A stretch of 64,000 nucleotides of DNA. It comes from Xanthobacteraceae bacterium (GTDB lineage: Bacteria; Pseudomonadota; Alphaproteobacteria; Rhizobiales; Xanthobacteraceae). The position numbers were made by a program, and so were the translations under genes. Shown piece by piece: positions 26,070 to 39,529 of this stretch; the first letter of the stretch is position 1, and every line of letters begins with the position of its first letter. The DNA lies in contig JAHBZE010000001.1 of the NCBI GenBank assembly GCA_019635585.1, positions 1,054,001 to 1,118,000 on the forward strand. The letters are read 5' to 3'. The notes under the pieces are model-generated. The model searched no databases. It was not told the DNA's origin and saw only the letters and a program-made list of their open reading frames with translations.

Positions 26070-27929
26070 TTATTCACACACCTGGCGGTGGGGCTGCTCA
26101 CCCTTATTGAAATCGCCCCAGCGGCACTTCAGTCCTCGCGGCTGCGGCGCCTGATTGCGTACGACCGGCTGTTGCGGCGCCACGGGCCGAACACAGGTGC
26201 CGTTCGGCGCAAGCACCGTGCCGGGCGCGCAGATCGCAACGCAGGTTTCGCCCTGTGCGCGCTGACCGGCGGCACAAACCAGCGGGCAGACGCGGTCGGT
26301 TCTCGCCTTCACTGCGTCGAGCGCCGCATCGGTCGGCATATTGATGTCGAGTTTGGTCGCGGCGTGCTGGTTGAAAGCGGTGAGCGCCTTCTTCGATTCA
26401 TCGCCCCAAATCTCGTTCGACGAAATCACGCCGCAGCCGGCCCGGCGCAATTCCGCGTTCAGCTTCACCGTAAGTTCGCGCGTGCGTACCGCGGTCAGCC
26501 GCTGCACCTGTGCGCGCGCAAGCTGCGCGTAGAAACCGTCGGCGTGGCGTTTCAGAAATTGCTCATAAGCTTCGATGCTGTCGACTTTCTGCGCGAGTTC
26601 GAAATCCTTGCGGGCTTCGGCCTGTTGGTCGGTTTTCGTTTCCGGCTGCGGAGCAGGTGCCGGCGCAGGCGGCGTTTCCTTCGTCGCGAGTTCCGGCATC
26701 TGCGCCGGCGGCGGCGTCACAACTTGCGGCGCCGGAGGGGTTGCCGCCTGCGGCTGGCGCGTCAGTACCGGCGGCGGTTGCTGCACGATCAATGCGGGAC
26801 CGCGCGTGCCGAACAGATTGAGCGAGCTTCCGCCGATCAAAATAATCGCGCCGGCGAGCGTCGCCGTTACAACGACGGGGCCCACCCAGCGCCAGGAGGA
26901 TTTTTTCGGCTCGGCGACTTTCGCGGGCGAAGGCGCGGAGGAAGGCGTCGTCGAGAATTTCGGCTCCGGCTTCGATACCGGCGCGGCAGGCACGACCGCT
27001 GTCGCCGCGGTCGCGTGGGCGTCGCCCCAGCCGATCTCTTCGCGCAGCGCGGCGATCGAGGCCGTGCGGTTGCGTGCATTGAAGGCAAGCGCACGGTCGA
27101 TGGCTGCCGCAAAGGACGCAGGCACATCGGGCGCGAGCGTTGCAAGGGGTTTGAGCGGATCGCCATTGCCGAAAGCGATCTGCTGCGTGCGCTCCTCGGC
27201 GGAAGCAGGCGGCCGTCCGGCGAGCGCGCGGTAGATCGTCGCTGCCATCGCATAGACATCCGCGCGCATGTCGAGTTGATCCGTGCTTTCCTGCACCTGC
27301 TCGGGCGGCGAATAGAACTGCTTTGACACCATGAACGAGCGATTGGTCTTGGAGCGGGCCTGGGTCTGCTGTTCGATCAGCTTGATCGCGCCGAAGTCGA
27401 TGATGACCGGCGTGCCGTTCTGCCGGATCATGATGTTGTCCGGCGCGATGTCGCGATGGATCAGTTTCTGCGCGTGCAGATATTCGAGCGCGCCAAATAC
27501 CGGCTCGAGCAGCGGCCGCAACTCGTCCGGGCGCGGCGGCGTTTCGCGCTGCTTCAGCCAGCCTTCGAGGGTTTCGCCCTCGACATACTCCATGATCATG
27601 TAGCCGGTATCGTTGTCCTTCACATAGTGAATGACGTCGACGATGTTCGGATGCTTGAGGCGGCACTGGTCGGTGGTGGAGCTTTCGAAACGCTTTAGCG
27701 CCCATGCGGCGAGATCGGCGTCGCGCGCGGCAAAGATGATGCGCGTGCTTTCCTCGCGCGAGGCGATGCCGCGCGGGAAGAATTCCTTGATCGCGACATG
27801 CTTGCCGGTAATCGGGCTCGACGCCTCGTACGTGATGCCGAAGCCGCCGGAGCCGATCACGCGCAAGATCTCGTAGCCCGCGATTTTCGAGCCCAGTCTC
27901 AGCGCATTCGGATCATTCTGGATCGCCAT
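26070..27929 (-). CDS. Membrane Ser/Thr protein kinase, paralogue 1
   Basis: A 619-residue Hanks-type kinase. In the kinase domain (about 19-300), GSGGFG is at 26-31, the catalytic Lys is K48 (VAIK), HRDIAPDN has D160 and N165, and DFG is at 178-180 (IIDFGAIKL). One membrane helix follows near 345-370, then a Pro/Gln-rich linker. The periplasmic end has an AYEQFLKRHADGFYAQLA repeat-like helix, a peptidoglycan-binding-like segment (RRAGCGVISSNEIWGDESKKAL) and a Cys-rich RVCPLVC...CVAIC tail. It ends 5 bases from the convergent histidine kinase and is in tandem with paralogue 2. Substrates are unknown. Confidence 0.92.
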   Translation of the reverse strand: MAIQNDPNALRLGSKIAGYEILRVIGSGGFGITYEASSPITGKHVAIKEFFPRGIASREESTRIIFAARDADLAAWALKRFESSTTDQCRLKHPNIVDVIHYVKDNDTGYMIMEYVEGETLEGWLKQRETPPRPDELRPLLEPVFGALEYLHAQKLIHRDIAPDNIMIRQNGTPVIIDFGAIKLIEQQTQARSKTNRSFMVSKQFYSPPEQVQESTDQLDMRADVYAMAATIYRALAGRPPASAEERTQQIAFGNGDPLKPLATLAPDVPASFAAAIDRALAFNARNRTASIAALREEIGWGDAHATAATAVVPAAPVSKPEPKFSTTPSSAPSPAKVAEPKKSSWRWVGPVVVTATLAGAIILIGGSSLNLFGTRGPALIVQQPPPVLTRQPQAATPPAPQVVTPPPAQMPELATKETPPAPAPAPQPETKTDQQAEARKDFELAQKVDSIEAYEQFLKRHADGFYAQLARAQVQRLTAVRTRELTVKLNAELRRAGCGVISSNEIWGDESKKALTAFNQHAATKLDINMPTDAALDAVKARTDRVCPLVCAAGQRAQGETCVAICAPGTVLAPNGTCVRPVAPQQPVVRNQAPQPRGLKCRWGDFNKGEQPHRQVCE

Positions 27930-28063
27930 CGCCGTATCCTTCGAGCCGCCGCATCTTGCGCGGCCTGTAAAAATAACGCTACTCCCGGCGGCTCCAAAAC
28001 TGTGTGACGAGGGTCACAAGTCCGTTCACGGCCGCGCGATGGAACCCGCGTCCGGTCGCGGAC

Positions 28064-29770
28064 TTACCGGGGCGCGGGCGGAAATTGGGGCTGGGCGCTG
28101 ACGGCGGCAACGGCGGTAAAAGAGCCGAAACAGGAGCCTCGCTCCACCGTGTTCGCATAGGTCGCTTCGATTTTCTGCGGCGTGATCCTGCCCGCGAGCT
28201 TGATCTTGTTTAGCAGCGGGCGGCCGTTCGCGCCGGTATCGTCGATGCCGCCGCTGTAGTCGAACGTGCCATCGGCATTGATATCGACAAAATACGTATT
28301 GCCGCCTTGCGAGACGCGAAGCTTCTGGCCTTCGACCAGAATGATGAGCGGCACGCGCCTGCCGGGAACGCAGGCTGTCAGCGGTAACGACGGATTGACC
28401 GGCTCCGCGCGAACCAGCGTGATCTCCCCGGTGAACCACTTGGGAAAAGCCGTAACCGGCGACGCACACTTGCCGTTCAATTCTTCTTGTCCCGGCGGGC
28501 AAACCATGGCGGGTGGAACGAGCGTCTGTTGCTCGTTCCGCGGCTCGGGCTGTTCCTTTTTCGGCTCGCTTTCTTTTGCCGTCTGCTCCTTCGGCGTTTC
28601 CTGTTCGGGTGGCGTGTGCACCTGCATTTGCGGCACGACTTTCATTTCATCGAACTTGGGTGCTGGCGGCGGCGTTTCGACGACTTCCTTCTTCGCCGGA
28701 AGCGTGATGACGCCGCTCAAAACGAGCGCCGCCACCAACACAGCTGCAATGCCCGCGAGCGGCAAAAGCCAGGGCAATTTCGAGCGCTTTGCTTTCTGCC
28801 CGCGCGGCGTGGTTGCCGCCCGCATATCCGCGCCGCGCGGCAGTGCGATCGTCGGCGCAAAGCCTTCGCCCTCCCCCCAGCCCAGCGCCGCGCGCAATTC
28901 GCCGATCCTCGGCTGTCGATTTTCCGCGTTGAAGGAAAGCGCGCGGTCGATCGCGGCTGCGATTTCGCGCGGCAGTTCAGGCGCGAGCGCCGCGAGCGGT
29001 TTAATCGGGTCTGGCTTGCCGAAAGCAAGCTTCTGCATCCGGTCTTCGGCGTTCGCGGGCGGCTGGCCGGCGAGCGCCCGATAAAGCACCGCCCCGGTCG
29101 CATAAATATCCGCGCGGCTGTCGAGTTCGCCATCGGCGTCGATCTGTTCCGGCGGCGAGTAGAACTGCTTCGAGACAAGAAAGGACTTTTCGGTCCGCGA
29201 ACGGATCTGCGTTTCCTGCTCGATCAGCTTGATCGCGCCGAAGTCGATGATCATCGGCTGGCCGTCAGCGCGGATCATGATGTTGTCGGGTGCGATGTCG
29301 CGATGGATCATCTTGCGGCCGTGCAGATATTCGAGCGCGGACAGCACCGGTTCCATCAGCGGGCGCAATTCTTCCGGTGTGGGCTTTGTCCGGCGTGCGC
29401 GGAGCCAATGTTCGAGGGTTTCGCCCTCGACATACTCCATGATCATGTAGCCGGTGCCGTTGTCCTTCACGTAATGAATGACATCAACGATGTTCGGATG
29501 CTTCAGCTTGCACTGGTCGAGCGTCGAACTCTCAAAGCGCTTCAGCGCCCACTGTACGACATCTTCGTTCTTCGCGGCATAGATCAGGCGCGTGCCCTCG
29601 CCGCGCGAGGCGATCCCGCGCGGGAAGAATTCCTTGATCGCGACGCGCTTGCCGGTGAAGGGGCTGTCGGCTTCATACGTGATGCCGAAGCCGCCCGCGC
29701 CAAGCACGCGAATGATATTGTATCCCGCGATCGACGCTCCCGGCGGAAGCGCGTGAGGGTCGTCCGACAT
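28064..29770 (-). CDS. Membrane Ser/Thr protein kinase, paralogue 2
   Basis: A 568-residue Hanks-type kinase starting at MSDDPHALPPG; the same opening in paralogue 3 supports this ATG over one ten codons upstream. GAGGFG is at 24-29, catalytic Lys is K46, and HRDIAPDN and IIDFGAIKL are intact. A single membrane helix (WLLPLAGIAAVLVAALVLSG) follows the kinase domain. The outer part differs from the other two: after a short linker there is a compact domain with VPLIILVEGQKLRVSQGG and an Asp-rich DINADGTFDYSGGIDD segment, possibly a carbohydrate or ligand-binding fold. It lies upstream of paralogue 1 with a 134-base gap. Confidence 0.92.
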   Translation of the reverse strand: MSDDPHALPPGASIAGYNIIRVLGAGGFGITYEADSPFTGKRVAIKEFFPRGIASRGEGTRLIYAAKNEDVVQWALKRFESSTLDQCKLKHPNIVDVIHYVKDNGTGYMIMEYVEGETLEHWLRARRTKPTPEELRPLMEPVLSALEYLHGRKMIHRDIAPDNIMIRADGQPMIIDFGAIKLIEQETQIRSRTEKSFLVSKQFYSPPEQIDADGELDSRADIYATGAVLYRALAGQPPANAEDRMQKLAFGKPDPIKPLAALAPELPREIAAAIDRALSFNAENRQPRIGELRAALGWGEGEGFAPTIALPRGADMRAATTPRGQKAKRSKLPWLLPLAGIAAVLVAALVLSGVITLPAKKEVVETPPPAPKFDEMKVVPQMQVHTPPEQETPKEQTAKESEPKKEQPEPRNEQQTLVPPAMVCPPGQEELNGKCASPVTAFPKWFTGEITLVRAEPVNPSLPLTACVPGRRVPLIILVEGQKLRVSQGGNTYFVDINADGTFDYSGGIDDTGANGRPLLNKIKLAGRITPQKIEATYANTVERGSCFGSFTAVAAVSAQPQFPPAPR

Positions 29771-29846
29771 GAACCTGGCCCCTGAAACCGGCGCGGACAT
29801 TATGCCCCGGAGCCGTCAGGGTCGAGTAGCGGTTCCGTGAGCGGCG

Positions 29847-30221
29847 CTACCGTTTCGGCCACAGGCTCTCGAACTGGTCCGCCACCGGGCGCAGAGGGAT
29901 CTCGGCGCAGGAGAAGCTCCGGCGGAACGGCGTGCCGCGCAGGCCGATCTCCATACGGGACGCGGCATGGTCCCAGACAAAGTCGGTGAAGTCCGGGCCG
30001 ATCATCTGCACGCTGAACAGGAACGAGCGCCCATAGGAGCGCAGGATCGTGCCGGGCAGCGGGCGAGCCTGCGCCGGCGACTCGTAAATCGCCTTCTGCG
30101 CCGCGGTGTCGAAGGTAAAGAGGAGCGGCTGGTGTGGGCCATCGTCGCAGCGGAGCGAGAATTGCTCCGCAGCGGCGGGACAGGCGAACAACAGAAATGC
30201 GGCGGCGAAGGCGAACCTCAT
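29847..30221 (-). CDS. Secreted hypothetical protein
   Basis: A 124-residue protein with a clear signal peptide (MRFAFAAAFLLFACPAAAEQ, cleavage likely after AAA-E). Two cysteines remain in the mature part (LRCDDGP and FSCAEIP) and could form a disulfide in the periplasm. No family recognised. It sits between a Ser/Thr kinase and an aldehyde dehydrogenase with no tight coupling to either. Confidence 0.75.
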   Translation of the reverse strand: MRFAFAAAFLLFACPAAAEQFSLRCDDGPHQPLLFTFDTAAQKAIYESPAQARPLPGTILRSYGRSFLFSVQMIGPDFTDFVWDHAASRMEIGLRGTPFRRSFSCAEIPLRPVADQFESLWPKR

Positions 30222-30280
30222 TCCCGGAAACTAGCACGCCGCGCGAGTTACCCCGCGCGGCGCGTCGAAGAAAGGTGAAC

Positions 30281-30297
30281 GCGGCGATAAGCGCCGC
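30281..30297 (-). terminator. Possible terminator after the aldehyde dehydrogenase
   Basis: GCGGCG-ATAAG-CGCCGC hairpin just past the stop at 30310; on the minus strand it is followed by a moderately T-rich stretch (TTCACCTTTC). A second GC-rich dyad lies further downstream at about 30238-30262. Confidence 0.4.
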
Positions 30298-30309
30298 GCA
30301 GAAAGCCGG

Positions 30310-31743
30310 TTAAAGGCCGAGTTGCGAGATGAATTTGGTGTTGAGGTAGCTCTCGATTGCTTCCGAGCCGCCTTCGGAACCGTAGCCGGAATCCTTCACG
30401 CCGCCGAAGGGGACTTCGGGAAGCGCGAGGCCGTGATGATTGATCGACACCATCCCGCTTTCGAACGCCGCGCCGATCGCGGCGGCCGTCTTCGCCGACG
30501 AAGTGTAGGCATAAGCCGCAAGCCCGTAAGGCAAGCGGTTCGCTTCCTCCACCACCTTGTCGAACGAAGTGAACGGCATGATCGGCGACAGCGGCCCGAA
30601 CGGCTCCTCGTTCATGATCTTCATGTCGTGATTGATGTTGGTGAGCACGGTCGGCTCGAAGAAGCTGCCCTTGTTGCCGATTCGCTTGCCGCCGGCTTCG
30701 ATCTTCGCACCCTTCTGCACAGCGTCGGAGACAATCGCTTCCATCGCATCAACGCGGCGCGGCCCGACGAGCGGGCCCATGCGCGTATCCTTGTCGAGAC
30801 CGTCGCCGACTTTGAGCTTCTTCGCCGAGTCCGTGTATTTCTGCACGAAGTCGCCATAGACCTTTTCGTGCACGAGGAAGCGGGTCGGCGCGACGCAGAC
30901 CTGACCCGCGTTGCGGTGCTTGTTCGCAAACAGCACCTTCACCGCCTGATCGACATTCGCATCCTCGAACACGATCGCGGGCGCGTGACCGCCGAGCTCC
31001 ATCGTGATGCGCTTCATGTGCAGGCCGGCGAGCGACGCAAGCTGCTTCCCGACGGGAGTCGAGCCCGTGAACGTGATCTTGCGGATCACGGGGTGCGGAA
31101 TGAGATAAGACGAAATCTCCGCGGGGTTGCCGTAGACGAGTTGCAGCACACCCTGCGGCACGCCCGCGTCGAGATAGCACTTCACGAGTTCGGCGCAGGA
31201 AGCCGGCGTATCTTCGGGACCTTTCAGGATGATCGAGCATCCGGCAGCGATCGCGGCGGAAACCTTGCGCACCGCCTGATTGATCGGAAAATTCCACGGC
31301 GTGAAGGCCGCGACCGGACCCACCGGCTCCTTCACCACGAGCTGATAGATATTTTCGCCGCGCGCCGGAATCACGCGGCCATACGTGCGGCGCGCTTCCT
31401 CGCCGAACCAGTCCATGATGTCGCCGGCGAGCAGCGTCTCGCCCTTGGCTTCCATCAAGGGCTTGCCCTGCTCCTGCACCATGATTTTCGCGATGTCGTC
31501 GGCGCGCGAGCGGATGATGTCGGCGGCCTTACGCAGGGTCTTGTAGCGCGTGTCGGCGGGCGTCTTCTTCCAGACCTTGAAGCCGTCGTCGGCCGCCTGC
31601 AACGCCATGTCGAGATCGGGCTTGGTCGCGTGCGACAGCGTGCCAATCTTCTCGCCGGTCGCGGGGTTAAAGATCGGCTCGCTCTTGCCTTCCGCGCCTT
31701 TGGTCCACTGGCCGTTGATATGCAGGGAAACGTCCGGATACAT
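30310..31743 (-). CDS. NAD(P)-dependent succinate-semialdehyde dehydrogenase family protein
   Basis: A 477-residue aldehyde dehydrogenase, closest by eye to GabD-type enzymes. Catalytic residues are present: N151 in FTPWNFP, E249 in MELGGHAP and C283 in AGQVCVAPTR; the FTGSTPVGKQ motif binds the cofactor. I start at MYPDVSLHINGQW (ATG at 31743), where family similarity begins. The exact substrate (succinate semialdehyde, glutarate semialdehyde or another aldehyde) cannot be fixed by reading. A hydratase/decarboxylase-like gene is divergent from it 99 bases away and may act on related intermediates. Confidence 0.88.
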   Translation of the reverse strand: MYPDVSLHINGQWTKGAEGKSEPIFNPATGEKIGTLSHATKPDLDMALQAADDGFKVWKKTPADTRYKTLRKAADIIRSRADDIAKIMVQEQGKPLMEAKGETLLAGDIMDWFGEEARRTYGRVIPARGENIYQLVVKEPVGPVAAFTPWNFPINQAVRKVSAAIAAGCSIILKGPEDTPASCAELVKCYLDAGVPQGVLQLVYGNPAEISSYLIPHPVIRKITFTGSTPVGKQLASLAGLHMKRITMELGGHAPAIVFEDANVDQAVKVLFANKHRNAGQVCVAPTRFLVHEKVYGDFVQKYTDSAKKLKVGDGLDKDTRMGPLVGPRRVDAMEAIVSDAVQKGAKIEAGGKRIGNKGSFFEPTVLTNINHDMKIMNEEPFGPLSPIMPFTSFDKVVEEANRLPYGLAAYAYTSSAKTAAAIGAAFESGMVSINHHGLALPEVPFGGVKDSGYGSEGGSEAIESYLNTKFISQLGL

Positions 31744-31842
31744 TGTGCTTCTCTCGCCTAGACTGTTCTGAAAATTGGCCGGGATGGGGCTACGAAAGGC
31801 AGCCGCTGTCAACACCGGCGATGCAAGGCTGATCTTACCGCA

Positions 31843-32643
31843 ATGAGCACGATCGACACACCCTTGAAGGCCCGCGAAATCCTCGACGCGCTCGATCATC
31901 AAAAGCGGCTTGCCGCTTTCGGCGGGATCGAATTGCCGCAGGCTTATGCCGTGGTCGCCGAAATGAAGCGGCTTCGCACCGCGCGCGGCGAGAAGGTGCT
32001 GGGGCGGAAAATCGGCTTCACCAACCGCACGATCTGGGACGAATACAAAGTGTTCGCGCCGATCTGGGGCTATATGTACGACACCACGCTCAGCGACGCT
32101 TCCGCTGCGCGGAATGTCGACCTGTCGCGGTTTGCCGAACCGCGGCTGGAACCAGAGATCGCGTTCGGTTTCGCGCGGGCGCCCGAGGCCGGCATGAGCC
32201 CTTCACAAATCTTCGACTGCGTCGAATGGGTTTCGCACGGCTTCGAGATCGTGCAGTCGCATTATCCGGACTGGAAGTTCTCCGCGCCCGATACGGTCGC
32301 GAACAACGCGCTGCACGGCGCTTTCTTTCTGGGCGAGAAAGTCTCCGCCATCATGAACCGCGCGGCGTGGGTCGAGGCGCTCGCCGGGTTCGAAATTTTT
32401 CTCTTTCGCAACGACGTGCTCATCGACCGGGGAGATGCAACCAACGTGCTCGACGGACCGCTATTTGCCATCAAACATCTGCTCGAGCTTTTGAAAGACG
32501 ACCCGCATAATCCGCCGGTCGCGGCCGGCGAAATCGTCACCACCGGGACGGTAACGAGAGCATGGCCGGTCGCGAGTGGAGAAACCTGGCGCACCGAAGT
32601 CAGCGGACTGAAACTGCCCGGAATCGAGATCAGCTTTTCCTGA
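31843..32643 (+). CDS. 2-keto-4-pentenoate hydratase / oxalocrotonate decarboxylase family
   Basis: A 266-residue member of the fumarylacetoacetate hydrolase superfamily, MhpD/DmpH group. Key pieces are GRKIGFTN near residue 50, metal-ligand Glu residues in RLEPEIAFGF, and the C-terminal GEIVTTGTVTRAWPV. These enzymes act in meta-cleavage of aromatics, but no other such genes are close. Its 3' end overlaps the convergent aquaporin gene by 14 bases. Confidence 0.85.
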   Translation: MSTIDTPLKAREILDALDHQKRLAAFGGIELPQAYAVVAEMKRLRTARGEKVLGRKIGFTNRTIWDEYKVFAPIWGYMYDTTLSDASAARNVDLSRFAEPRLEPEIAFGFARAPEAGMSPSQIFDCVEWVSHGFEIVQSHYPDWKFSAPDTVANNALHGAFFLGEKVSAIMNRAAWVEALAGFEIFLFRNDVLIDRGDATNVLDGPLFAIKHLLELLKDDPHNPPVAAGEIVTTGTVTRAWPVASGETWRTEVSGLKLPGIEISFS

Positions 32644-33298
32644 CAGCCTCGCCGCGCCACAGCCAACGGCAAAAAAGAACGGCGATTCCCATCCCCGCCA
32701 ATTGGCAGAGAATGAACAACGGCGCGCTCGACGGCGCGATTCCCGCGAACGTATCGGAAAGCGAACGCGCAAGCGTGATCGCCGGATTGGCGAAAGACGT
32801 CGAGGACGTGAACCAGTAGGCCGACGTTATATAGAGGCCGACCGCGAGCGGCAGCTTCGCCGCGTCTTTGTCCTTTAACCCCAGAATTGTCACCACCAGC
32901 CCGAACGTCGCAACGGCCTCGCCGATCGCGGTTCCCGTTGCGGCACGAAGCGTTCCCGAAATCTGAAACACGGGCAGCCCAAACATGAGATGCGCGAGCC
33001 ACGCACCCGCGATCATGCCGCAAATCTGCGCCGCAATATAAAGCGCGCAAAGCTGCCACGGCAGCTCGCCGCGGAAAGCGAGCGCAAGGCTTACCGCCGG
33101 ATTGAAGTGCGCACCGGAAACCGGTGCGAAGACCGAAATGATCACGAAGAGGATACAGCCGGTCGCGATCGCATTCGCGAGCAGCGCCAGTGCGATATTG
33201 CCTCCGGAAAGATTTTGCGCCGCAATGCCCGAACCGATCACGGTCGCCGCAAGAAAGGCGCTGCCGATAAACTCGGCCGCGAGTTGCCGCGTGCTCAT
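32630..33298 (-). CDS. aqpS: Aquaporin/aquaglyceroporin of the arsenic operon
   Basis: A 222-residue MIP-family channel with six helices and two NPA boxes (HFNPAVSLAL and FANPAITLAR). It is the last gene after arsR and arsC, its start overlapping the arsC stop by 4 bases. In Sinorhizobium meliloti the same arrangement lets AqpS release arsenite made by ArsC, replacing an ArsB or Acr3 pump; no such pump is in the window. Symbol assigned from context. Confidence 0.85.
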   Translation of the reverse strand: MSTRQLAAEFIGSAFLAATVIGSGIAAQNLSGGNIALALLANAIATGCILFVIISVFAPVSGAHFNPAVSLALAFRGELPWQLCALYIAAQICGMIAGAWLAHLMFGLPVFQISGTLRAATGTAIGEAVATFGLVVTILGLKDKDAAKLPLAVGLYITSAYWFTSSTSFANPAITLARSLSDTFAGIAPSSAPLFILCQLAGMGIAVLFCRWLWRGEAVRKS

Positions 33299-33819
33299 GT
33301 CGCTTTCATCGCTTTCTCGGTGGCGCCTTCTTCGCGGCCGATTTCGCGCAGCCGCGCCTTCAGCGTGATCGTATCGAGGCCGCTGATCGGCAAGGCCGCG
33401 AACAACTCAATGCGGCGATAGAGCAGCCGGTAGGCTTCCTGAAAAGCGCGAGCGATTTCCAGTTCGCTTCCTTTTGCGGCGGAAGGATCGGCAACGCCCC
33501 AATGCGCGGTCATGGGCTTGCCCGGCCAGACCGGGCAGACCTCGCCTGCGGCGTCGTCGCAAACCGTGAAGATGAAATCGATTTCCGGCGCGCCGGGCTT
33601 TGCGAACTCGTCCCACGATTTCGAGCGGAAGTTCGCGGTGTCGTAGCCGAGACCCCCGAGAAGTTTCAGCGTGTTCGGATTGATCGCGCCGCGCGGCTGG
33701 CTGCCCGCGCTGTAGGCGACGAATTTTCCCGCGCCGATGCGGTTCATGATCGCTTCCGCCATCACCGAACGCGCGGAATTATGCGTACAAAGAAATAATA
33801 CGTTGTATGGCTTATGCAC
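33295..33819 (-). CDS. arsC: Arsenate reductase, LMW-phosphatase type
   Basis: Reduces arsenate to arsenite in the cytosol. The 174-residue protein has the CX5R active-site loop at residues 11-17 (LFLCTHNSARS) and a second-half Cys pair (FTVCDDAAGEVCPVWPG), both typical of the thioredoxin-linked family. It overlaps arsR upstream by 8 bases and aqpS downstream by 4. Confidence 0.93.
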   Translation of the reverse strand: MHKPYNVLFLCTHNSARSVMAEAIMNRIGAGKFVAYSAGSQPRGAINPNTLKLLGGLGYDTANFRSKSWDEFAKPGAPEIDFIFTVCDDAAGEVCPVWPGKPMTAHWGVADPSAAKGSELEIARAFQEAYRLLYRRIELFAALPISGLDTITLKARLREIGREEGATEKAMKAT

Positions 33820-34174
33820 GTTTGCGCTCCGTTTCCCTGCGCTGCGGCGCGCAGGACGCGCCGCCGAATACCTGGCCGCAAATCTCGGGTTTGCCGCCGC
33901 AACAATCGCGGGCGAGAAAATCGACGAGCATGCGAAGTCCGCCGATATCGGCGGAATAGATGACCTCGCGCCCCTGCTTTCTCGAGCCGATCAGGCCCGC
34001 GCGCTCGAGGATCGCGAAATGCGTGGACATGGTGTTGTGCGGCACCTTGCAGCGCCGCGCGATTTCGCCCGCGCTTTTTCCGTCCGGCGAACAGGCGACG
34101 AGATGTCGAAACGCGGTTAGCCGCGTTTCCTGCGCCAGCGCGGAGAGGCTTTCGATCGCTTTCTTCTTGTCCAT
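33812..34174 (-). CDS. arsR: ArsR-family arsenite-responsive repressor
   Basis: A 120-residue winged-helix repressor (SLSALAQETRLTAFRHLV, recognition helix VPHNTMSTHFAILERAGLI). A C-terminal cysteine cluster (ARDCCGGKPEICGQ, then SCAPQ) likely binds As(III), unlike the classical CVCDLC site in the DNA-binding helix. I use the ATG at 34174 (MDKKKAIESL); in-frame starts at 34186 and a GTG at 34204 would add up to ten residues and place the operator inside the gene. First gene of arsR-arsC-aqpS. Confidence 0.9.
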   Translation of the reverse strand: MDKKKAIESLSALAQETRLTAFRHLVACSPDGKSAGEIARRCKVPHNTMSTHFAILERAGLIGSRKQGREVIYSADIGGLRMLVDFLARDCCGGKPEICGQVFGGASCAPQRRETERKRA

Positions 34175-34185
34175 AATTCTCGACA

Positions 34186-34196
34186 TATCGACGATA
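34186..34196. promoter_or_regulatory. Candidate ArsR operator
   Basis: TATCG-A-CGATA, an 11-bp palindrome 12 bases upstream of the arsR start used here. Its position suits autoregulation of the ars operon. The sequence is not a close match to a textbook ArsR site. Confidence 0.4.
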
Positions 34197-34204
34197 CATG
34201 ACAC

Positions 34205-34966
34205 CGGCGTGACAGTTGCCTCCGCGATTCAGCCGGAAACGGGGATAAATAATTCGAGGGGCGGGGATTTCCCGGAAACCGCAAATGCTTATGCGCAGCA
34301 GGAAAAGATTTATCCCCGCCGCGAATTTCCTTTTTATGTTCGGAGCGCCTCGATCCACGAGGGGCGCGGAGCGCTCGCGTGGTTCTCGCGCGGATCGGGG
34401 GCGGTGGCCGCAAGACTCGCGTTACGCGCGCGGGATTTGCGGCGGCTGAAGTCGCATGGTTCCGGCGAGCCTGCCGCTCGTCACGAGGGCCTTTCTTGGC
34501 GGCTTTGTCCGGAACGCGTGCCAACGCAAGTACGGCAAGGCAGAGAAGGCCCGCCAGCGGTGGATAAACGGTAAGTCCACCGGGGATTGTGCGAAGCAGG
34601 CCGTAACCCATCGCGCGTAGTCGGCGCGAATGGCCAACGCGCGTGTCGCTTGCGACATTCGCGTCAATAAGGCCACGCGCGCTGCGGGACGCCGGGATTT
34701 TGCCGGCACCCGTGACGACGACGCGTCTGCACTGCTTGTTGTTTGCGCCGAGGGCGCGAACACCAGGCACACGCTTCGTGCAGGCGGTCACGAGGGACCG
34801 GAAGGTCCCGGCGTCCCCGCCGCCCTTTATGTTTGCGCGAATGGGGTAAACCCCAAGCGCGCGAACAGAAACGGACGGCGCAGATCAGGTAAACCTCGGC
34901 TCGATGGAGCGCGAGAACGATCGCCCCTGCCTGCTGTTTGAAAATCGAATCCGCCGCTCGCGTCTC
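34205..34966. other. Intergenic block without a convincing gene, several small hairpins
   Basis: About 760 bases between arsR and the acetyltransferase. Both strands have open frames, but they are Arg-rich, lack ribosome sites and show no domain I recognise. Small perfect stems are visible, for example GGGACC-ggaa-GGTCCC (around 34795-34811) and GGGG-taaa-CCCC (around 34845-34856). The stretch from about 34450 to 34870 reminds me of multi-copy intergenic sequence in Bradyrhizobium-like genomes; that is recall, not a search. The right end near 34200-34260 should hold the ars promoter. Confidence 0.5.
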
Positions 34967-35545
34967 TCAGGACGAGAGTTCCTTCACCATCAGAATCCAG
35001 TTTTCGGTGTCGGTGTCCCAGTCTTCGGTGACGGCCTTGCGCGCCGCGCGCTCGCGCATGCCGTATCGGTGATAAAGCCGCCGCGCATCGTGATTGTCGT
35101 CGGCAACGATAAGACTGGTTGCGCGCAAGCCCATGTTGCGCGCGGTGTCGTCGGCCAGCGCAAGCAATTTGCCGCCCAATCCCAGATTGCGGAACCGCTC
35201 GTGAACGCCGACGACATTGATGTACCAGGTCGAAGGCGCAAGGTTTTCGAGTTCCTGCAGGGGCACAAACATCGCGGGCATTTCCGGCGGAATTGGCTCG
35301 GGCTTTTCCGGGATCGCGTAGCCGATCAGGCAGCCCGCGCATTCGCCGTCATGCTCGACCACGGTCGTATTGCGATAAGAGAAGGCACCTTCCTCGCGCG
35401 CGGCGCGTGCGCGGCCGATTTCCCACGGATCTTCGCCCGCTTTTGCGAGCTTGCTCCAGAGATAATGCGGCATGCCGTGGCCCGCGTAATTCATGAATTC
35501 GGCGAGCGATGGCGCATCTTCTTTTCTGGCGGGGCGAAATGTCAT
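34967..35545 (-). CDS. GNAT-family N-acetyltransferase
   Basis: A 192-residue acetyl-CoA-dependent acyltransferase. The acetyl-CoA binding motif is in the region VVGVHERFRNLGLGGKLL, followed by LIVADDNHDARRLYHRYGM, the usual C-terminal motif B. The substrate is unknown. Its ATG overlaps the stop of the ketopantoate reductase gene by 4 bases, so the two are co-translated. Confidence 0.88.
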   Translation of the reverse strand: MTFRPARKEDAPSLAEFMNYAGHGMPHYLWSKLAKAGEDPWEIGRARAAREEGAFSYRNTTVVEHDGECAGCLIGYAIPEKPEPIPPEMPAMFVPLQELENLAPSTWYINVVGVHERFRNLGLGGKLLALADDTARNMGLRATSLIVADDNHDARRLYHRYGMRERAARKAVTEDWDTDTENWILMVKELSS

Positions 35546-36543
35546 CGGATTATTTCCGCGATTTCTTCGCGCGAAAGAAATTTTCCGGTCTGTTCGATCC
35601 GCCGGATATTTTCGACGACCGCGCGGTTGATCGGCGCCGGATAGCCGGTCCTGTCGCTAAGCCGGACGAATTCGCCGTTGAGATAGTCGATCTCGGTCGG
35701 CTGTTTGCGCAGAATGCTTTGCAGGGTCGAGGTCATGATCGACGCCTGATCGCTGCTGCCGAGATTTTTGCGCAGGATCATCCTGCCAACGAAGGCGGGC
35801 AGCATCAGCGCACGCGAGAACAATTTCATCGGCGCGCCGGGCATATTGATCAGCGAAATTCCCGCCGCACGCACGACGCCGAAAGATTCTTTCAGTTGCG
35901 CGACCCCGAACTGCACGATCACGCGGTCGTTCACGCATTCGTTGAGCGGTTTCCCGGTGAGCGCGTTCATTGAATTCGTCATCGCGTTGATGACGAGCTT
36001 CGACCACATCGCCCCTTCGATCTCATCCGTGACGAAGACGGAGGCGACCATCGCGAACAGCCGCTTCAATTCGGAAAGTTTGCTCCGCAGTTCGGGTGCC
36101 GCAGCACCAAGCACGGTGACGCCCTCGCGGTTGTAGCGCACCTCTCCGGGAGCCAGCGAGGACGAGTTGAGGAGCAGGATCGCCGAAGCCGGCTCCCGCC
36201 CGCATTCTGCGAGCACGATCTCGCGGGCACGGACGCCATTCTGCGCCGTCACGATGGTCGCCTTGCCGAGGGAAGCCTTTTGCGCACGGATCGCTTCCGC
36301 CAAGTCCTGCGTCTTCATGGTGAAGACCGCGAAATCCGTATCCGGCGGAATTTCCGCGGCGACTTTCGGCGTCACATGAAAATCGCCAGCAATCCCGCTC
36401 GCTCGCAGGCCCGACGCGCGCAGGGTCTCAACCCGGTTAGGCCGCACCACGAGCGTCACATCCTCGCCCGCGCGCGCCCATAAGGCGGCCAGGAGATTGC
36501 CGATGGCGCCAGCGCCGATAACCGCGATCTTTGACTTGGTCAT
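35542..36543 (-). CDS. panE: 2-dehydropantoate 2-reductase (ketopantoate reductase family)
   Basis: NADPH-dependent reductase of pantothenate synthesis or a close relative. The 333-residue protein opens with the dinucleotide motif AVIGAGAIGNLLAALWARAG and has the ApbA/PanE C-terminal domain with a conserved Lys (MWSKLVINAMTNSMNALTG). I start at MTKSKIAVIG (36543); the 56 codons upstream are not family-like. Several PanE paralogues are usual in rhizobia, so the symbol is tentative. Confidence 0.85.
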   Translation of the reverse strand: MTKSKIAVIGAGAIGNLLAALWARAGEDVTLVVRPNRVETLRASGLRASGIAGDFHVTPKVAAEIPPDTDFAVFTMKTQDLAEAIRAQKASLGKATIVTAQNGVRAREIVLAECGREPASAILLLNSSSLAPGEVRYNREGVTVLGAAAPELRSKLSELKRLFAMVASVFVTDEIEGAMWSKLVINAMTNSMNALTGKPLNECVNDRVIVQFGVAQLKESFGVVRAAGISLINMPGAPMKLFSRALMLPAFVGRMILRKNLGSSDQASIMTSTLQSILRKQPTEIDYLNGEFVRLSDRTGYPAPINRAVVENIRRIEQTGKFLSREEIAEIIR

Positions 36544-36715
36544 TCCGGCCGAAACCCCATCTATTGAGACGTAAGGAGAAGGTAAGGAAGGCGAATGCGG
36601 CTGCCTTGCATAGCCGTCGGGTAAGGAAAAAACCGAAGAATCCACCGCGCGTGGGCTCGCGTGCTTGACCGCCCCGGAGCCGTCTGCGAGAAAAATCATA
36701 AGAGAGATCAATAGG

Positions 36716-36730
36716 TTAGAAAAATTCTAA
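36716..36730. promoter_or_regulatory. Irr box (iron control element) upstream of bfd
   Basis: TTAGAA-AAA-TTCTAA, a perfect dyad matching the rhizobial Irr/ICE motif, 22 bases before the bfd start. Irr represses iron-storage genes when iron is low. Confidence 0.8.
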
Positions 36731-36751
36731 TCTAGCTAAAAAGCGGCGCCC

Positions 36752-37048
36752 ATGATCGTCTGTTCGTGTAACTGCCTGACCGAAGCGCAAGTCCGCGAGT
36801 CCTGCACGCGGACCGAGGGTGCCGCGCGCTCGACCTTCGAGGTCTACAAGTGCCTCGGCTGCAGCCCGAAATGCGGGACCTGCGCCCGGACCATCCGCAA
36901 GATCATGGACGAAACCCTTGGCGGAGCCGCCTGTAATGCTTGTCCGGCGGCTACGAACAGTGCCTGCGGCGCGGCCAAGATCGCCGATGCCCTGAATGCC
37001 GCGATCGAGCCCCTCCCGGCGGCTGCGGCGCTCGTCGCCGCCGAATAA
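36752..37048 (+). CDS. bfd: Bacterioferritin-associated ferredoxin
   Basis: A 98-residue [2Fe-2S] protein that helps release iron from bacterioferritin. Likely cluster ligands are C4 and C6 (IVCSCN) with C41 and C44 (PKCGTCARTIRKIMDE). It is longer than the 64-residue E. coli protein, with an extra Cys/Ala-rich tail (CNACPAATNSACGAA) and two further cysteines at 34 and 37. It is followed by bfr, each gene having its own Irr box. Confidence 0.92.
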   Translation: MIVCSCNCLTEAQVRESCTRTEGAARSTFEVYKCLGCSPKCGTCARTIRKIMDETLGGAACNACPAATNSACGAAKIADALNAAIEPLPAAAALVAAE

Positions 37049-37098
37049 TCCTGATTCTCCGGCCTTTCGATCTCCCTAGAGACCTGTTTGCCTTCTCC

Positions 37099-37113
37099 TT
37101 AGAACTATTCTAA
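37099..37113. promoter_or_regulatory. Irr box upstream of bfr
   Basis: TTAGAA-CTA-TTCTAA, a perfect dyad of the same type as the one before bfd, 37 bases upstream of the bfr ATG. A separate box suggests that bfr has its own promoter besides any bfd read-through. Confidence 0.8.
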
Positions 37114-37150
37114 ATGATTGAAACCACCGGTTTCAAGGAGAACGGCCGCC

Positions 37151-37630
37151 ATGAAGGGCGATCCCAAAGTCATCGAATATCTCAACAAGGGTCTTCGCTC
37201 GGAGCTGACCGCGATCAACCAGTATTGGATTCATTACCGCCTGCTCGATGACTGGGGCTATCTCGACCTCGCCAAGAAGTGGCGAGCGGAGTCGATCGAG
37301 GAGATGCAGCACGCGGACAAATTCACGCAGCGCATCATCTTTCTCGAGGGTCTGCCGAACATGCAGACGCTGGACCCGATCCGCATCGGCCAGAACGTCA
37401 AGGAAGTGCTGGAGGCCGACTTGAAAGCCGAATACGAGGCACGCGCGCTCTATCAGGAAGCCGCCACTTATTGCCATTCGGTCAAGGACTATCCGTCCAA
37501 GGACCTGTTCGAAGAACTGATGACGGACGAGGAAGGCCATATCGACTTCCTCGAAACGCAACTCGATCTCGTCGAGAAGCTCGGCCTGCAGCTCTACTCG
37601 CAGCATCACATCGGGAAACTCGAAGACTGA
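37151..37630 (+). CDS. bfr: Bacterioferritin
   Basis: A 159-residue haem-containing iron-storage subunit that forms a 24-mer. Ferroxidase ligands E18, E51 and H54 and the haem ligand M52 are at the canonical positions. I start at [11 protein letters not shown] (37151), with AAGGAG at suitable spacing; an upstream TTG in frame (37118) precedes that ribosome site and is less likely. Confidence 0.97.
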
Positions 37631-37667
37631 GAAATCAGGCGACGACGGAAATATCGAAGCGCAAATG

Positions 37668-37701
37668 AAAAAGGCCGGGGAAAATCATCCCCGGCCTTTT
37701 C
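37668..37701. terminator. Bidirectional terminator between bfr and a kinase gene
   Basis: AAAAGGCCGGGGA and TCCCCGGCCTTTT (13-bp arms) around a 6-base loop. The A-run and T-run flank the stem on both sides, so it can end both the bfr transcript (+) and the convergent kinase transcript (-). Confidence 0.9.
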
Positions 37702-37717
37702 ACTTCGGATAAGAAGC

Positions 37718-39529
37718 TCAGTTGCCGACGCAGATGCCACGGACGCAGATCGTACCGCGCGGCATGTTAAACTGCTGCTGTTGCTGCTGTTGTTGCTGCG
37801 GGCGCTGCTGATATTGCTGCTGCGGCTGCTGCACCTGTCGCGGAACCGCGACACAGCTATCGCCGCGGGCGACGAAGCCCGGACGGCAGACCAGCGGGCA
37901 GACGCGGCGATCGCGGTCCTTCAGATCACGCAACAGATTCTGGTTCGGCTCGCCGTCATATTTCGTTTTGGCGTACTTGTTATAAAGATCGAGCGACTTG
38001 CGCGCGGAATCGTCCCAGTCCCCGTCGTTGTTTTCGGGACCGCAGCCTACGCGCTGCAATTCGGTGATGACATTGCGCGTGAGCGTTTTCTGCACGCGCT
38101 CGGTTTCGATCGCCGCCAGTTTGGTTTTCTGGGCGCGCGCGAGCGTCGCATAAAATCCGTCCGGATAGCGAGACAGGAAAGAATCGTAGGCGTCGATCGT
38201 GTCGATCTTCTGCGCAAATTCGAAATCGATGCGCGCGGCCGCCTGCGGATCCACCTGCGGCACCGGCATCTGCTGCAAGGCCGGGGGAATATCCGCTTTC
38301 GGCTGCTCGGCTTCCGCTTTCGGTTCGACCACCGCGACCTGCTGCGGATTTTGCGCCGGAGTTTGCGCCGTGTTCTGGCTCTGTGGCTGCGGCACGTCGG
38401 TCTTGACGACGGCGACCTGAGGGCCTTGTCCCTGCCCTCGGAACGACGTCATTGCGAAAGCCGCGCCGACGACGAGAAAGACTAGGCCGGCCGCGATCGC
38501 AGCCCACTTGCCCATGCCGCGTTTGCCCGGCTCGAGTTGCGGCGCAGGCGCGCGAAGATAAGACGGATTGGCGCCCGGGTTCGGCGCGGTGCGGATCACC
38601 GGCATCGTCGGCGCGGTCGAACCGGTCGTGCCCTGCCAGCCCAGCGCCTGCCGGAATTCCTCGATCGAGGCCTGCCGCTCGGACGCGCGGAACGAAAGCG
38701 CCTTCTCGATCGCCTTCGCGAAGTTCTCCGGGATGTGGGGAGCTGCGACCGAGAGCGGAATCAGCGAGTCGCCCTCGCCGAATGCGATCTTGCGCGCGCG
38801 CTCTTCGGTGTCGGCCGGCGGCTTTCCCGCAACCGCGCGATAGAACACGGCGCCAAGCGCGTAAATATCGGCGCGGGCATCGAGCGACTCGCCCTCGCGG
38901 GTCTGTTCCGGCGGCGAATAATGCTGCTTGCCGACCATGAACGAATGCACGGTCTTAGCCTGCAACAACGTGCGGTTCTCGATCAGCTTGATCGCGCCGA
39001 AGTCGATGATCACCGGGCGGCCGTCCGCCGTGATCATGATGTTGTCGGGGGCAACATCGCGGTGAATGAAGTTCATGTTGTGCAGGTAGTCGAGCGCGTC
39101 CATCACCGGCTCGAGCACCGGACGGATTTCATCCATCGTCGGCAAATTCGGACGTTCGCGGAGCCAGTGTTCGAAGGTCTGACCTTCGACATAGTCCATG
39201 AACATGTAGCCGGTGTCGTTCTCGGCGAGGTAGTGAAACACCTCGACGATGTTCGGGTGCTTCAAGCGGCACTGTTCGGTGGTCGAGGACTCGAAACGCT
39301 TGAGCGCCCAGCTCACCAGCTCCGAATCGCGCTCGGCGTAGATAATTTCGGTCGCGCCCTTGCGCGAAGCGATTCCGCGCGGGAAGAATTCCTTGATCGC
39401 GACCCGGCGGCCCGTAACCGGGCTTTCGCCCTCATAGGTGATACCGAAGCCGCCCGCGCCAAGGACGCGGACGACACGATAGCCGGCAATTACCGTTCCG
39501 GCGGGTAGCGCGTGCGGATCGTTCGTCAT
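37718..39529 (-). CDS. Membrane Ser/Thr protein kinase, paralogue 3
   Basis: A 603-residue Hanks-type kinase starting at MTNDPHALPAG. GAGGFG is at 24-29, catalytic Lys is K46 (VAIKEFFPRGIASR), and HRDVAPDN and IIDFGAIKL follow. The membrane helix is WAAIAAGLVFLVVGAAFA. The periplasmic part mirrors paralogue 1: an AYDSFLSRYPDGFYATLA helix, a peptidoglycan-binding-like block (QRVGCGPENNDGDWDDSARKSL) and RVCPLVC. It then adds a glutamine-rich run (about 20 Gln) and a short Cys-containing end (GTICVRGICVGN). It is about 8 kb from the tandem pair. Confidence 0.92.
   Translation of the reverse strand: MTNDPHALPAGTVIAGYRVVRVLGAGGFGITYEGESPVTGRRVAIKEFFPRGIASRKGATEIIYAERDSELVSWALKRFESSTTEQCRLKHPNIVEVFHYLAENDTGYMFMDYVEGQTFEHWLRERPNLPTMDEIRPVLEPVMDALDYLHNMNFIHRDVAPDNIMITADGRPVIIDFGAIKLIENRTLLQAKTVHSFMVGKQHYSPPEQTREGESLDARADIYALGAVFYRAVAGKPPADTEERARKIAFGEGDSLIPLSVAAPHIPENFAKAIEKALSFRASERQASIEEFRQALGWQGTTGSTAPTMPVIRTAPNPGANPSYLRAPAPQLEPGKRGMGKWAAIAAGLVFLVVGAAFAMTSFRGQGQGPQVAVVKTDVPQPQSQNTAQTPAQNPQQVAVVEPKAEAEQPKADIPPALQQMPVPQVDPQAAARIDFEFAQKIDTIDAYDSFLSRYPDGFYATLARAQKTKLAAIETERVQKTLTRNVITELQRVGCGPENNDGDWDDSARKSLDLYNKYAKTKYDGEPNQNLLRDLKDRDRRVCPLVCRPGFVARGDSCVAVPRQVQQPQQQYQQRPQQQQQQQQQFNMPRGTICVRGICVGN

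Follow-up and report, generated by a model that had tools for sequence, protein, structure and literature searches.

Serine at the alphaC glutamate position in a predicted membrane kinase family from a Xanthobacteraceae bacterium

Three genes for predicted membrane Ser/Thr kinases, designated K1, K2 and K3, lie in a 64,000-nucleotide stretch of contig JAHBZE010000001.1 from a Xanthobacteraceae bacterium (hereafter the window, to which plain coordinates refer), and two more kinases of the same type, K4 and K5, form a tandem pair on another contig of that genome (contig 2). When these proteins were aligned with the Ser/Thr kinase PpkA and kinases of many lineages, the position of the alphaC glutamate (E91 of PKA) proved to be serine in all five. 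PMC1821047 counts the alphaC glutamate among the ten key residues of the kinase superfamily; its loss was missed by the original prediction, which had described K1–K3 as a family of sensor kinases. The substitution is conspicuous and open to experimental test. We give about even chances to the hypothesis that K1–K5 are catalytically competent, envelope-sensing kinases with an unusual N-lobe that feed, in trans, a module of FHA, VWA and PP2C proteins encoded on contig 2.

Serine or threonine in place of the alphaC glutamate

The three genes of the window are all on the minus strand: K1 (619 amino acids (aa), 26070..27929), K2 (568 aa, 28064..29770, with an ambiguous start that could also be at 29800) and K3 (603 aa, 37718..39529). 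Each open reading frame (ORF) matches Pkinase (PF00069; E = 1.6e-37, 5.1e-39 and 4.4e-36, respectively) at 125–135 bits against a curated cut-off of 31.7, and within the kinase domain K1 shares 71% identity with K2 and 62% with K3. The shared motifs named in the original prediction, VAIKEFFPRGIASR, HRDI/VAPDN and IIDFGAIKL, were found in all three proteins, as was a single hydrophobic segment C-terminal to the kinase domain (mean Kyte-Doolittle score above 1.6 over 19 residues). K1 can be divided approximately into a kinase (residues 1–300), a membrane helix (352–370) and an outer part (372–619); the protein copy on which most comparisons were based (P0002) lacks the first Met. To judge from their sequences, K1–K3 are paralogous one-helix membrane Ser/Thr kinases, as had been proposed. 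The whole genome holds six Pkinase matches: K1–K3, the K4/K5 pair and one kinase of another type. This sixth kinase (L006; C1:1161746-1162366) has the motif HLDVKPSN and is fused to a part that appears Usp-like by eye.

The serine codons at the alphaC position were reckoned to lie at 27678..27680 for K1 (Ser84, counted from the K1 start), 29525..29527 for K2 and 39284..39286 for K3, all on the minus strand. The residue at this position was then tallied across 214 kinase rows, made up of K1 as the reference and the 213 distinct sequences among 254 kinase-like frames from all loci; partial copies, near-copies and the window's own kinases for a second time are included. Rows were selected by an HxD...N plus DFG pattern, and neither the beta3 Lys nor the alphaC residue played a part in the selection. 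Glutamate was present in 167 rows, serine in 44 and threonine in 3 divergent members, a count that is no survey of all kinases because the loci stem from searches led by K1-type kinases. Every row without glutamate has Ser or Thr and no other residue, and in 44 of these 47 rows the next residue is Thr. All but one of the Ser/Thr rows (46, with the reference counted) come from the window's genus, the remaining one being from a genome of another family (G276). The Glu rows come from outside the genus in 165 cases; the two from inside it, the sixth kinase of this genome and one in G104, are other kinase types. A sequence error behind the missing glutamate was ruled out, as the change recurs across different assemblies.

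The beta3 Lys (K72 equivalent) is present in 214/214 rows, and so are the equivalents of the HRD Asp (D166), the Asn (N171) and the DFG Asp (D184), these three partly by construction of the selection pattern. Among the features expected of a Hanks-type kinase, K1–K5 have a Pkinase match above the cut-off, the beta3 Lys, the HRD Asp, the Asn and the DFG Asp, and lack the alphaC glutamate. Bacterial pseudokinases are defined by loss of the VAIK Lys, the HRD Asp or the DFG Asp; K1–K5 have kept all three and are therefore not pseudokinases by this three-motif definition. At the second position after HRD (HRD+2), where Lys is the usual residue, K1–K5 have Ala. This is nothing special, because Lys is missing from 128 of the 214 rows, its place being taken by Ala in 79, Ser in 30, Thr in 15, Asn in 3 and His in 1.

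K1–K5 might instead be ATP-binding pseudokinases, or very weak kinases, that serve as a conformational switch or scaffold and relay an outer signal without phosphotransfer. This would fit the absence of the alphaC glutamate from all rows of K1-type kinases, together with the Ala at HRD+2, and it has a parallel in the bacterial DYD family, which also lacks the glutamate: in PMC12599244 that lack is among the named defects and approximately 60% of the family is annotated as pseudokinase, which tells against catalysis by K1–K5. However, the three motifs by which the same review defines activity are intact in K1–K5, Ala, Ser or Thr at HRD+2 is common (124/214 rows), and PpkA likewise lacks Lys there (HRDIS). 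A PP2C accompanies the kinase family (see below), which suggests that something is phosphorylated. We regard the pseudokinase explanation as rather unlikely, if a serious contender, and continue here with catalytically competent kinases as the preferred reading.

The Ser/Thr kinases form a clade with further characteristic positions. The HRD Arg is retained (RD type), K1 position 198 is Ser or Thr in 41/41 clade rows, and the activation segment has 26 residues in 32/41 clade rows versus 21 in 48/63 others. Asp or Glu occupies position 70 in 39/41 clade rows, and K183, D220 and R222 are also typical of the clade. In a tree of 110 kinase domains, the 41 Ser/Thr rows fall on one side of one branch with a Shimodaira–Hasegawa-like approximate likelihood ratio (SH-aLRT) support of 92; with the trait columns removed, the support for the same branch is 81, below the mark at which the program counts a branch as shown. 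The neighbours of this group are six sister kinases that keep Glu and carry HRDLTP, joined to it with a support of 98. A single loss of the alphaC glutamate is the simplest reading of this tree, not proof. A clade that seemingly lost the glutamate in a single event while retaining all other catalytic residues, and that reached at least five copies in some genomes, would amount to a natural experiment on the need for the salt bridge between the beta3 Lys and the alphaC glutamate.

The Ser/Thr at the alphaC position could itself be a phosphosite, with its phosphate pairing with the catalytic lysine, such that PP2C would turn the kinase off. The one observation in favor of this idea is that the non-Glu rows are all Ser/Thr (44 + 3 of 214), mostly followed by Thr, and we consider it very doubtful. 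If true, the phospho-switch would be a reversible substitute for what most other kinases carry as an invariant residue.

The Ser/Thr form is narrowly distributed in the samples searched. A contig scan yielded 333 matching stretches, of which the best 80 (77 loci) were evaluated; among these, 17 loci from six metagenome-assembled genomes (Xanthobacteraceae, Hyphomicrobiales or unplaced Pseudomonadota) were 55–95% identical, after which identity dropped to 38% or less. A survey of related genomes, as the original prediction had proposed, found that 5 of 119 genomes of the family, all from the window's genus, have matches at E ≤ 1e-40. One relative holds ten of these kinase matches; the total is 27, of which 24 have Ser, two have Thr (both in genome G085) and one, in G104, is a kinase of generic type that has Glu and HRDIK. 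Two family kinase genes of G085, L114 (within L218) and L117 (within L216), break off within the kinase domain or shortly behind it, the remainder lying in another frame, and may be pseudogenes or sequence errors. At the level of the order, 47/397 genomes had a match at 1e-45, and the 29 loci listed besides the window's own comprise one with Thr (G276) and 28 with Glu. The kinase of G139 retains Glu as well. The loci listed besides the window's own for the class (27 loci, 385 genomes) and the phylum (29 loci, 398 genomes), which cover part of the matches, all have Glu.

Selection on K1–K5 is strongly purifying and the genes are not decaying. Relative to the orthologues in ACE_PRO33, the ratio of nonsynonymous to synonymous substitution rates (dN/dS) was 0.068, 0.119, 0.014, 0.088 and 0.038 for the kinase domains of K1 to K5, and 0.063, 0.272, 0.070, 0.119 and 0.044 for the outer parts, the latter values being rough because dS was 0.56–0.65, and 1.2 for K2. 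The fastest-evolving outer part is that of K2.

A PP2C/FHA/VWA module on contig 2

The original prediction had remarked that no phosphatase partner or FHA protein is nearby. Matches to PF00498 (FHA) and PF13672 (PP2C) are indeed absent near K1–K3 and near K4/K5 (other phosphatase families were not sought), but contig 2 encodes a PP2C/FHA module in trans: the five FHA matches and the one PP2C_2 match of the genome all lie there. At the module locus (L087) the genes are ordered PP2C, a small FHA-like protein (weak match), a VWA-FHA protein, a membrane-like protein, a 677-aa FHA protein, a further FHA protein and a secreted-looking protein. The 677-aa core protein (L087:12162-14195 = C2:820165-822195) consists of FHA and a large conserved second part with a GGGxG stretch, Rossmann-like by eye, which we take to resemble a dinucleotide-binding fold. 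No Pfam, NCBIfam or PDB relative was found for this second part, only the FHA part being matched. Another FHA match on contig 2 is at the end of a cation/proton antiporter-like protein (assigned by eye; L089:8407-10116), with a small FHA protein encoded next to it on the opposite strand.

The module is rare. The 677-aa protein is present in 9/397 genomes of the order, with 41–48% identity in other families, and in none of 162 sampled class genomes, the own genome aside. A kinase match occurs in 8 of the 9 genomes with the 677-aa protein versus 39 of the 388 without it (Fisher p = 1.8e-7, relatedness uncorrected); a second co-occurrence test used a cut chosen post hoc and is illustrative only. 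PP2C orthologues of at least 75% identity are found in the same five genus genomes as the kinase (of 119), the G104 copy being split in two at the ends of contigs, and matches of 28–34% identity in five others. Of the eleven module loci inspected, one of which is a stretch of just 14 kb, five contain a kinase. In G085 and G276 it bears Thr at the alphaC position, G085 having two such genes, one of them interrupted by a frame change; G343 and G301 have sister kinases that keep Glu; and the kinase of G139 belongs to an unrelated type. No kinase was found in the module stretch read for the own genome, G023, G178, G222, G187 or G369.

We hypothesize that K1–K5 are the amplified and dispersed kinase arm of this rare module. 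The outer parts, presumably periplasmic, would read envelope states; the kinase domain, presumably cytoplasmic, would autophosphorylate and phosphorylate target proteins; FHA domains would read phosphothreonine on those targets; and the single PP2C would reset the phosphorylation. For this, the N-lobe would have to dispense with the salt bridge between beta3 Lys and alphaC Glu, with Ser, or Thr in divergent members, at the alphaC position and with a longer activation segment. The module supplies candidate partners and makes the question of the salt bridge directly testable.

Several points weigh against this proposal. The co-occurrence ignores relatedness, and the scoring in each genome was limited to the few top candidates of an initial pass. 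A kinase is present in only 5/11 module loci, one of these being the unrelated type of G139, and action in trans is a guess because neither the own genome nor G023 has a kinase at the module locus. Two acidic positions, E35 in 41/41 clade rows and the acid at position 70, are at most candidates for facing Lys48, and E35 is also present in 9/63 Glu-bearing rows.

Active kinases with no connection to the PP2C/FHA module offer another explanation, in which K1–K5 would be independent envelope sensors that act, much as PASTA kinases do, each on substrates of its own. The lack of PF00498 and PF13672 matches around the kinase genes is as expected for such sensors, and so is the divergence of the paralogues in their outer parts. 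Set against this are the presence of kinase and PP2C in the same five of 119 genomes and the occurrence of close kinase relatives inside the module in other genomes. We think independent sensors unlikely and retain signaling through the module as the preferred reading.

Outer parts and neighboring genes

The original prediction described K1 and K3 as sharing an outer block and a CPLVC tail, which is borne out. K1 and K3 are 50% identical across 575 aa, outer block included, and the block itself, at residues ~434–570 of K1 (26220..26630, minus strand) and at 37835..38242 (minus strand) in K3, both coordinates reckoned, shows 49% identity. In the own genome, only K1 and K3 carry it at E ≤ 0.001. 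The label "peptidoglycan-binding-like" that the block had been given was not sustained: none of eight members scanned had a Pfam match to a peptidoglycan-binding family, PF01471 included, at E up to 10, in a search where HMMER filters discard most weak matches; the block is predicted to be helical, which is compatible with a peptidoglycan-binding fold. Against PDB sequences, the best match of the block had an E value of only 0.24. Whole-model fold searches (K1 against the PDB, K2 against viral proteins) returned kinases, with a few unnamed entries, among the 50 matches listed, and therefore provided no fold neighbor for the outer domains. A membrane-like protein with the K1/K3 block and without a kinase domain is encoded at L012:1030-1806 (also contained in L016, on the same contig). 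Near the end of the K3 gene, a CTG repeat at window positions 37772-37832 encodes a Gln run (minus strand), the length of which varies between relatives; Rfam and tandem-repeat scans around the kinase genes found nothing beyond this run and one tRNA.

K2 has a different outer domain (28106..28438, minus strand, reckoned), as was claimed: its similarity to K1 stops before this domain, very short weak pieces excepted. The description of the domain as Asp-rich did not hold among K2 orthologues, where this property is unconserved. Eight beta strands are predicted, and a Cys pair is present in 6/6 aligned orthologues. The outer parts of K4 and K5 are TPR, and the outer parts of the clade as a whole include the K1/K3 type, the beta type, TPR, SPOR and PDZ plus TPR. 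SPOR was found in a K2-like kinase (L017, E = 3.9e-8) and PDZ plus TPR in L113, which groups with the K5 type. Three other members gave no such assignment: for L115 no Pfam match exceeded its cut-off, for L116 nothing beyond the kinase was matched at E = 0.01, and the second kinase of L013 had no match with a query sequence that was partly inexact.

The view of one kinase design with a swapped outside thus finds support in the five paralogues and the variety of outer types, but the swaps appear to be mostly old because 31 of 40 clade proteins pair the kinase with the outer type of their own group. This set includes five proteins that served as references; one partial and three repeated rows were removed beforehand. 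The remaining nine comprise four with an outer part unlike the five references, namely the SPOR kinase of L017, L115, L116 and the second kinase of L013, one (L112) that weakly matches another group and four that are short or frame-broken.

Upstream of K2 is a gene for a 124-aa protein (ORF 29847..30221, minus strand) with a signal-like start by eye and no Pfam match up to E = 1. It adjoins a K2-type gene in all seven related loci with upstream DNA (L010–L014, L016 and L017, L012 and L016 being one contig). In L010, L011, L012 and L013 the 124-aa protein, K2 and K1 are in a row; L014 has the small protein and K2, lacks K1 and continues with transporter-like genes; and L016 and L017 have the small protein together with the K2-type gene. 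This secreted-looking protein is a possible partner of the outer parts. The ORF at 37118-37630, bacterioferritin-like by eye, adjoins K3 in L014, L015, L016, L018, L020 and L095.

PADLOC matches to the PD-T4-6 and mad6 models, some with strong scores (best 6.2e-55), would cast the kinases as parts of an anti-phage system. Each kinase is matched by 35 to 37 models, however, mostly over the kinase domain alone among the 25 listed; three module proteins scanned had no PADLOC match; and the genes neighboring the kinases are conserved in related loci. The matches were set aside as generic kinase hits, and an anti-phage role is highly improbable.

Comparison with known systems

One-helix membrane kinases with an outer sensor part are known from the PASTA kinases (PknB/Stk1). 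K1–K3 score 154–166 bits with the PASTA kinase model NF033483, for which the cut-off is 450, and have no PASTA match in Pfam; membership of that group was rejected. Among solved structures, the closest relative of K1, a Hanks-type kinase, is PpkA, the Ser/Thr kinase of the type VI secretion system (PDB: 5hnv, 5x1r), which ranks first in the PDB both by sequence (7.6e-33) and, with the predicted K1 model, by fold (TM-score 0.86 by target length). PpkA has HRDIS in place of HRDxK, and K1–K5 are likewise without the Lys, with Ala instead; PpkA keeps the alphaC glutamate, whereas K1–K5 do not. PppA is the PP2C partner of PpkA. According to PMC3953482, PpkA works with FHA proteins, and in Agrobacterium PpkA, its target TssL and Fha follow a logic in which kinase action is read out by FHA.

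Relatives of the K1/K3 block were found in 13 plasmid records of rhizobia. Two of these, from Bradyrhizobium, are annotated as caspase family protein, unlike the kinases K1 and K3, and match over 64% of the query with 45% and 48% identity. The DYD pseudokinases are, according to PMC12599244, membrane-associated and without the alphaC glutamate, like K1–K5; they differ in that Arg replaces the beta3 Lys and a DYD motif is present, where K1–K5 have intact VAIK and DFG. A literature search recognised nothing that describes this kinase clade, the fixed alphaC change or the tie to the module, although coverage of subscription papers was thin and this is weak evidence. The TerY-phosphorylation triad consists of VWA, kinase and PP2C proteins, a similar set of parts to that proposed here. 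Unlike in the triad, the VWA protein of the module also bears FHA, and at the core of the module is the 677-aa protein, in which FHA is joined to a large second part.

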